A DNA stretch of 64,000 nucleotides from a bacterium A37T11 (GTDB taxonomy: Bacteria; Bacteroidota; Bacteroidia; Sphingobacteriales; Sphingobacteriaceae): the NCBI GenBank assembly GCA_900109895.1, contig FOBR01000010.1, forward strand, positions 1 to 64,000, written 5' to 3'. Below, in pieces: positions 39,766-45,822 of this stretch. The first letter of the stretch is position 1; each line of letters begins with the position of its first letter. The notes below the pieces were generated by a model. It made no database searches and had not been told where the DNA came from. It worked only from the letters and a program-made list of their open reading frames with translations. The position numbers and the translations under genes were made by a program.

Positions 39766-40395
39766 ATGCAAATTCAGGAATATACGCAAATTTTGGAGAA
39801 ATATATGCCGCTACAGGCCGCTCCCTTGATTGCGCGTTGGATACTTGACACCCATTGCTTATTTACCATCAGCAAGCGCCGCAGCTCTAAATTTGGTGAC
39901 TATCGTCCTCCGCACAGGGGCGCAGGTCATCGTATTTCCGTAAACCATAACCTTAACCCCTATACCTTTTTGGTAACAGCAGTTCATGAGTTTGCCCATC
40001 TTAAAACTTGGCAGGAATTCCGAAATCTGGAACGACCTCATGGAGCACCATGGAAAAAGAACTTTAGGCAATTGATGCTTCCATTTTTTGAACGGCAGGT
40101 CTTTCCTGCCGACGTCCAGACTGCAATTACACAATACCTGAATAACCCGACAGCTTCCAGCTGCACAGATTTGGATCTATTTAGGGCTTTGCAGCAATAT
40201 GATAAACCAAAATCCAATGTGCTCTTGGTTGAACAGCTACCTCCGGATACTGTCTTTGTCCTGAAAGATGGTCGTACATTTCGTAAAGGCCCTAAATTGC
40301 GTAAACGCTATAAATGTATGGAAGTAGCCACCAAGCGGGTTTATTTGTTCAGCCCAGTGGCCGAAGTGTATGTCATGACCCCTAAACTTATTTAA
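39766..40395 (+). CDS. SprT-like zinc metalloprotease-domain protein
   Basis: This 209-residue protein has the SprT-like zinc motif HEFAHLKTW (HExxH) near residue 71, preceded by HRISVNHNLNPYTFLVTAVH. A third zinc ligand may lie in RPHGAPWKKNFRQL, as in the family. SprT-like proteins are related to Spartan proteases; bacterial members are largely uncharacterised. Despite the similar name, it is not a gliding Spr protein. The C-terminus (about residues 140-209) has no zinc-ribbon cysteines. Confidence 0.78.
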   Translation: MQIQEYTQILEKYMPLQAAPLIARWILDTHCLFTISKRRSSKFGDYRPPHRGAGHRISVNHNLNPYTFLVTAVHEFAHLKTWQEFRNLERPHGAPWKKNFRQLMLPFFERQVFPADVQTAITQYLNNPTASSCTDLDLFRALQQYDKPKSNVLLVEQLPPDTVFVLKDGRTFRKGPKLRKRYKCMEVATKRVYLFSPVAEVYVMTPKLI

Positions 40396-41301: not shown

Positions 41302-42519
41302 TTATACTTTCTTTCTGTATTGTTTACTAAATGATTTTTTTGCTACGTGTGGAAGTTTTCGGTGAGTTCCCCAATGTTTTTTAAAGAACGCACCTATTAA
41401 CCAATTTTTCATTTTTCCGCCCATTAAATCCATCCATAACCGCTTGCTAACCATTTTTGAAAAAATCTTCCAAAACCATTGTTCAGTTTTTGAGCTTAAG
41501 TTTTGCTGCACTGCATCCCGACGGTTCATTAACAACATATGCTGAATGTCAATTTTAACAGGACAAACTTCCGTGCATTTTCCGCAGAGGCTGGAAGCTT
41601 GGCTCAAGTGTATAAATTCCTCCATTCCCTGTTGATGGGGGGTGATCAGCGAGCCTATTGGCCCACCATATGTGGTGCCAAAGGCATTACTTCCAATATG
41701 TTTATATACGGGGCAGGCATTTAAACAGGCACCACAGCGTATGCAGTACAGTCCCTGCCGTTGATCTTTCTGTGCCAGTAAGTCTGTACGGCCATTGTCA
41801 AGTAGAATCACATACATTTCTTCCGGACCGTCCGTTTCGTCCTGTTTACGGGGGCCACTCAAAATACTATTATAAACGGTAAGCTGCTGTCCTGATCCAT
41901 GTGTGGCAAGCAAAGGCCAAAAAATAGCTAGATCTGCAAGCGAAGCGATTAACTTTTCAATACCTGCGATGGCAATGTGTATTCGGGGAAATGTAGTACA
42001 AAACCTTACATTACCTTCATTTTCTGTCAAAGCAATACTCCCAGTATCTGCTATTAAAAAATTAGCGCCAGTAATGCCTGCATCAGCCTGTAGGTATTTT
42101 TCACGAAGAATATCAGACGCTAAAACCTCAATCCTTTGTTCTTGTAAAAATTTATCCACGCCAATTTCTTCCGTAACCATTGATTTTGATTTAACCACAG
42201 TACGGGCATTGGCCTTTTTTAAAATTTTGTTTATTTCATCCCTTGCTTCAGCGGCATCGTTTGCCCAAATTACTTTACCGCCGTTTTTTAAGAAATTTGC
42301 TTCAAAATCTGGAAGTAACTTATCCAGGTTTTCTATGACCTTCCATTTGAGTAAGTGGGCTTTCCGCTTCAGTTGTTCCAGATTAGCAAATCCAGGAAGT
42401 GCGGCCGCTACCGCCTTATTGTATTGGGCTATATTGTAGTCCATGATTTGCCGATGTTCCGGGACAAAAGCCTTTTGGGCACTCGCCGATAAAAACTCTT
42501 CTGAATGTGCTGAACTCAT
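41302..42519 (-). CDS. LutB-like iron-sulfur protein with an apparent internal deletion
   Basis: LutB is the iron-sulfur subunit of the LutABC lactate oxidation complex. The 405-residue protein has the LUD domain (MVTEEIGVDKFL near 115, ITGANFLIADTGSIALTENEG near 149) and two 4Fe-4S clusters (CIRCGACLNACP and CGKCTEVCP). Compared with LutB proteins I know (usually about 455-475 residues), about 55 residues are missing between IEVL and LREKYL (around residue 132-138), the segment that normally starts VETDLGE. The frame stays open. LutA and LutC are not adjacent, so it is an orphan in this window. Confidence 0.85.
   Translation of the reverse strand: MSSAHSEEFLSASAQKAFVPEHRQIMDYNIAQYNKAVAAALPGFANLEQLKRKAHLLKWKVIENLDKLLPDFEANFLKNGGKVIWANDAAEARDEINKILKKANARTVVKSKSMVTEEIGVDKFLQEQRIEVLASDILREKYLQADAGITGANFLIADTGSIALTENEGNVRFCTTFPRIHIAIAGIEKLIASLADLAIFWPLLATHGSGQQLTVYNSILSGPRKQDETDGPEEMYVILLDNGRTDLLAQKDQRQGLYCIRCGACLNACPVYKHIGSNAFGTTYGGPIGSLITPHQQGMEEFIHLSQASSLCGKCTEVCPVKIDIQHMLLMNRRDAVQQNLSSKTEQWFWKIFSKMVSKRLWMDLMGGKMKNWLIGAFFKKHWGTHRKLPHVAKKSFSKQYRKKV

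Positions 42520-42561: not shown

Positions 42562-45822
<3,261 letters not shown>

Follow-up and report, generated by a model that had tools for sequence, protein, structure and literature searches.

The LutB/LldF family (TIGR00273) is represented by lutABC of Bacillus subtilis, to which lldEFG corresponds, and its members carry a LUD domain followed by a 4Fe-4S dicluster with seven invariant cysteines. The window, meaning the whole 64,000 nt stretch of the strain A37T11 genome (G000) analysed here, contains a gene of this type whose product lacks part of the LUD domain, and neither lutA nor lutC is found beside it. The question raised by this locus is whether such a protein is still maintained as a LutB, and with what function, or is a gene in the first stage of decay.

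Passages of PMC10090944 report a complex of LutA, LutB and LutC, based on crosslinking, co-fractionation and AlphaFold-Multimer, and part of PMC12285252 describes a single lutB change that accompanies lost L-lactate use in Propionibacterium freudenreichii. The precise roles of the three proteins were called unclear in a section of a 2013 paper (PMC3924224).

Extent of the deletion and assignment of the protein

The window LutB is 405 aa long, compared to 455–477 aa for 109 proteins (103 distinct) of relatives, all from outside the genus of the window organism. By alignment, 53 columns are missing between ...VLASD (residue 136) and ILREKY (residue 137), placing the breakpoint between window bases 42112 and 42111, and the missing piece was 159 nt in all nine relatives measured. 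The deletion is confirmed as real in the DNA as sequenced. The first-pass annotation had described a loss of about 55 residues, from VETDLGE onward to LREK; the loss itself holds, but its size is 53 residues, and it begins at LGE, directly after E-S/T-D, with the sequence resuming at ILREKY. It had also stated that the frame and all iron-sulfur cysteines are kept, and this was borne out: the frame is open, with no stops, and all seven invariant cysteines (259, 262, 265, 269, 312, 315 and 319) are retained. Slippage between direct repeats was considered as the cause of the deletion and is not convincing, as at most 5 nt are common to both breakpoints in nine relatives.

Table 1. Features of the lutB locus and of the LldD-like gene elsewhere in the same genome.
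Feature	Position	Strand	Basis or remarks
lutB-like gene	41302..42519	-	405 aa; LUD domain and 4Fe-4S dicluster; 53-codon in-frame deletion
Deletion junction, codons 136 (Asp)/137 (Ile)	42109..42114	-	Alignment; 159 nt missing relative to relatives
LUD domain (PF02589), without LutB-specific insert	41800..42309	-	PF02589 profile match and alignment with LutC-like protein
First Fe-S cysteine motif (C259, C262, C265, C269)	41713..41745	-	Alignment
Second Fe-S cysteine motif (C312, C315, C319)	41563..41586	-	Alignment
SprT-like gene, locus marker	39766..40395	+	Pfam SprT-like, 22.7 bits, slightly under 25.6 cut-off
LldD-like FMN-dependent 2-hydroxyacid dehydrogenase gene	L172 2630-3787 (G000:C47)		Profile match

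The LUD domain lies N-terminal to the dicluster, as membership of LutB/LldF requires, and both the tree and the gene neighbourhood identify the protein as the ortholog of the LutB of relatives. It differs from typical members in lacking the 53-residue insert, in having no adjacent lutA or lutC, and in its TIGR00273 equivalog score (355.1 bits, under the 444.8 cut-off). That threshold discriminates poorly here: L039, a full-length relative, narrowly misses it as well (443.1 bits), while L041 lies over it (470.6 bits). Compared to LutC, which is a LUD domain alone (PDB 2G40), the window protein has the same layout in its LUD core, but it is not a LutC: the Fe-S dicluster is present, the protein groups with LutB, and the genome encodes a separate LutC.

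The lost segment and the LUD fold

The piece that is absent from the LUD domain of the window LutB corresponds to the LGEYIVQL...PYHIVTPAMH segment of relatives, together with most of the helix that follows. Of the 53 columns lost, 17 (LGE..., PYH.VTPAMHL) do not vary in a set of 58 non-redundant full-length relatives. When aligned with LutB, the LutC-like protein of the same genome is missing the same stretch, which marks the segment as an insert in the LUD core that is specific to LutB. Judged from its sequence, the LUD half of the window protein is reduced to a plain LutC-type core, and the iron-sulfur half is intact.

AlphaFold models of the short and full-length forms were of low confidence (mean pLDDT 52.8 and 45.3), which did not suffice to assign the insert to an active site. 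In a Foldseek search, the short-form model hit 2g40, the crystal structure of LutC (E 4.1e-8); 2g40 is not among the 50 matches listed for the full-length model. Because both models are weak, this likeness serves as support only. For both models, Foldseek ranked 9a6l first, which is an integrative model of LutA with LutB. Searching solved structures by sequence, with LutB as query, gave only Fe-S or weak matches; neither these nor the structure searches returned a crystal structure of LutB.

Genomic setting of lutB and its partners

The window lies on C19, one of the 60 contigs of a draft genome of 5.09 Mb that is 97.5% complete. Loci with the same protein come from Pedobacter, Mucilaginibacter, Parapedobacter and similar genera; where the tree labels their family it is Sphingobacteriaceae, to which the window genome presumably belongs too. 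A SprT-like gene lies downstream of lutB and runs in the opposite direction, both in the window and in 45 of the 80 loci of relatives, and a DUF4198-like gene (271 aa) at the window locus is shared with 16 of the 80, so lutB in the window most likely occupies its ancestral position. A GH2 beta-galactosidase gene (42562-45819) precedes lutB on the same strand, with 42 bp between them, and none of the 80 loci has an equivalent; read-through transcription from it into lutB is possible.

The gene had been described as standing alone, without LutA or LutC. This is correct locally but not for the genome, which encodes both partners, neither of them next to lutB. A LutA-like gene lies on contig C12, and the LutC-like gene lies on C31, adjoining what we take to be ftsH. 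A second full-length lutB accompanied by lutA and lutC had been envisaged elsewhere in the genome, and none was found: the PF02589 profile search returned two genes, the window lutB and the LutC-like gene.

All 23 genomes examined have a LutA match, either on a different contig from the lutB ortholog or at a distance from it, and all 23 have a separate LUD-only (lutC-like) frame of 215–257 aa apart from that ortholog. Furthermore, lutA was found in none of 80 loci of relatives searched up to 6 kb on each side of lutB with G000 LutA as query. For this lutB, dispersed partner genes are thus the usual arrangement. Three of the 23 genomes (G003, G012 and G014) carry, in addition, a clustered set of lutA, lutB and lutC-like genes; the window genome has no such set. 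The LutA proteins of G132, G171 and G235 are divergent, being 47–49% identical to that of G000.

Short and divergent forms in the family

A 75-aa query that covers the segment found a strong match (E < 1e-16) in 286 of the 301 family genomes. The other 15 comprise eight with a short LutB, four with a long but divergent LutB (G132, G152, G171, G235), two with a distant paralog alone (G052, G134) and one in which no LutB was found (G163, 77% complete). The eight short forms, a count that would miss any genome also carrying a paralog with the segment, are those of G000 and of seven genomes of one other genus, designated g17 (G187, G190, G214, G220, G238, G241 and G313). A family of naturally short forms had been put forward as a finding that would count against the first-pass reading, and such a second group does exist. 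No title on a short LutB was found in one open-access library, which is not proof of absence from print.

The g17 short forms (424–426 aa) resemble the window LutB in that the losses overlap and in being the sole LutB among the matches listed. They differ in having lost 34–35 residues rather than 53, in being more diverged, and in their separate place in the tree. Six of them lack 35 of the 53 columns, with the same starting column as the window deletion; the seventh (G214) lacks 32 of the 53 plus the two preceding residues. Six of the seven have lost one or several of the invariant cysteines, and in all seven a cysteine newly occupies position 261 and may compensate for a lost neighbour. Changes in the second Fe-S motif also occur in g17 without the deletion: in five divergent full-length forms (L123, L124, L125, L127 and L132), cysteines 312 and 315 are replaced, as is 269 in two of them.

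Other irregular lutB genes were observed. Proteins of 480–486 aa with an acidic extra stretch in the same LUD segment occur in g17 (L135, L136 and L137, from G235, G132 and G171), in the genomes that also carry a divergent LutA. The gene reads as broken or split in G100 (L134), G164 (L138) and G277 (L142/L133): the frame is interrupted in G100 (TGA counted), and in G164 and in G277 the pieces fall on separate contigs. All of these may be assembly breaks.

A tree of 62 rows, 57 of them from the family (including 44 full-length proteins kept at <86% identity), places the g17 short forms in one clade apart from the window LutB, giving two changes in all. Constraining all short forms to one clade made the tree worse by 36.4 log units, with a p-AU of 0.069, so that one origin is not rejected at the 5% level. 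A single origin must also explain the full-length g17 forms (G016 and the five divergent ones) next to the short clade. At the invariant columns, changes shared by the window LutB and the g17 short forms (2 of 9, P 0.37) are not above chance. Two separate losses, in G000 and in g17, are likely.

The g17 short forms change 21–29 of 134 invariant columns, and dN/dS among them is 0.09–0.19 (dS was calculable for 15 of 21 pairs), compared to 0.035–0.044 among full-length pairs (three of eight computable, with dS near saturation). These ratios suggest that the g17 short forms are under purifying selection, which counts against a reduced function, since a useless protein would show none. They are consistent with the main rival to the reading that we favour, namely a short LutB that works fully as a subunit, the insert being dispensable for LutABC in these organisms and simply trimmed. 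The persistence of short forms in seven g17 genomes fits that explanation, as do, in G000, the retained frame, cysteines and most invariant columns and the presence of LutA and LutC. However, a dispensable insert sits poorly with its 17 invariant columns, with its strong match across nearly the whole family, and with the Fe-S cysteines missing from most g17 short forms; overall, we consider a fully working subunit unlikely, if a serious contender.

Divergence of the window LutB

The set of invariant columns was defined on 103 full-length family proteins reduced to 58 at <90% identity. The window LutB changes 9 of 134 such columns, and each of the 58 relatives changes at most 3 of 137. A further protein, L028 (from G008, of the same family, outside both the 58-protein set and the tree), changes 4 of 134, so that the maximum in any of 59 relatives is 4 of 134; with L028 included in the set, the window count becomes 9 of 130. 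In a smaller set, the window LutB changes 17 of 203 columns, within the leave-one-out range of 4–20 of 207–223, and LutA of G000, used as a control, changes 10 of 134 (leave-one-out range 1–11 of 135–145). Mean identity to six references is 0.658 for LutB of G000 and 0.723 for its LutA, a gap similar to that of the canonical g17 genome G016 (0.673 and 0.743). The excess over the LutA control is mild, and the window LutB thus appears to evolve somewhat faster than LutA without being free-running. Synonymous sites were saturated against each of the seven relatives tried for dN/dS of the window gene.

These results bear on the early pseudogene suggested by the first-pass annotation, in which a recent deletion inactivated lutB and the frame has not yet decayed. 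The number of changed invariant columns lends this idea something, as does the end branch of the window LutB (0.55), the longest of the 57 family rows, where the median of all end branches is 0.14. Against it, there is no stop or frameshift, the cysteines and most invariant columns are intact, the excess is mild by the LutA control, and changes on the long branch are undatable with a comparison set that contains no same-genus relative; a pseudogene is improbable. On the neofunctionalised shorter form, the other reading of the first-pass annotation, the evidence is neutral. An artefact, with the 159 nt dropped in assembly, is very improbable even for a 60-contig draft, given that no word longer than 5 nt is common to both breakpoints (15-nt stretches, nine relatives), that an exact codon multiple is missing, and that overlapping short forms occur in seven other genomes.

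An LldD-like dehydrogenase accompanies altered LutB

Searches with PF01070 (FMN_dh) and PF02652 (lactate permease) covered 20 of the 23 genomes, G132, G171 and G235 being left out. A full-length FMN_dh match was present in all 13 genomes with an altered LutB (G000, seven short, five divergent) and in three of the seven canonical ones, of which a single genome (G016) is from g17. Ignoring shared descent, Fisher p values are 0.007 for the altered forms and 0.026 for the eight short forms alone. The association is a correlation, based on approximately two independent events and found after the groups were known, and the three canonical exceptions have both enzymes.

In G000, the FMN_dh gene directly follows RhaI-like (L-rhamnose isomerase) and rhamnulokinase-like genes, both scoring below curated cut-offs. 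The best NCBIfam model for its product is L-lactate dehydrogenase PRK11197 (291 bits, below the 376 cut-off), and among solved structures the best match is a mandelate dehydrogenase, so the substrate is not certain. Portions of PMC3870299 state that rhamnose catabolism can give L-lactate, and that lldD and lldEFG fall within RhaR regulons of some Actinomycetales and Rhodobacterales. The PF02652 lactate permease was not found in 19 of the 20 genomes, G000 included, and lactate uptake is therefore unproven.

Interpretation of the short LutB

The window protein is the sole LutB of this organism, and the in-frame loss of 159 nt has removed its LutB-specific insert, leaving the LutC-like LUD core and the Fe-S half. 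The reading that we favour, with moderate confidence, is that this LutB is still constrained, with its LUD half cut to a LutC-like core, and that an altered or reduced function of LutABC is tolerated through redundancy. The short protein presumably retains its ability to fold and probably continues to associate with LutA and LutC, and its lactate chemistry may be altered or lost. This loss was probably tolerated because another enzyme, the LldD-type FMN dehydrogenase encoded beside the rhamnose genes, could oxidise L-lactate. The g17 lineage would have taken the same route and drifted further, with changes to the Fe-S cysteines as well.

A more speculative and rather doubtful extension is that loss of the insert, probably on two occasions, turned LutB from a catalytic LUD subunit into an electron carrier or scaffold with a LutC-like fold, with LutABC redirected to another substrate in the lineages whose L-lactate is now handled by LldD-like enzymes.

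We regard this rare, probably parallel shortening as a modest variation on a protein already known and not as a system of a new kind. These natural LutBs, missing just the insert and with their partner genes present, are ready-made variants for probing the role of the insert.
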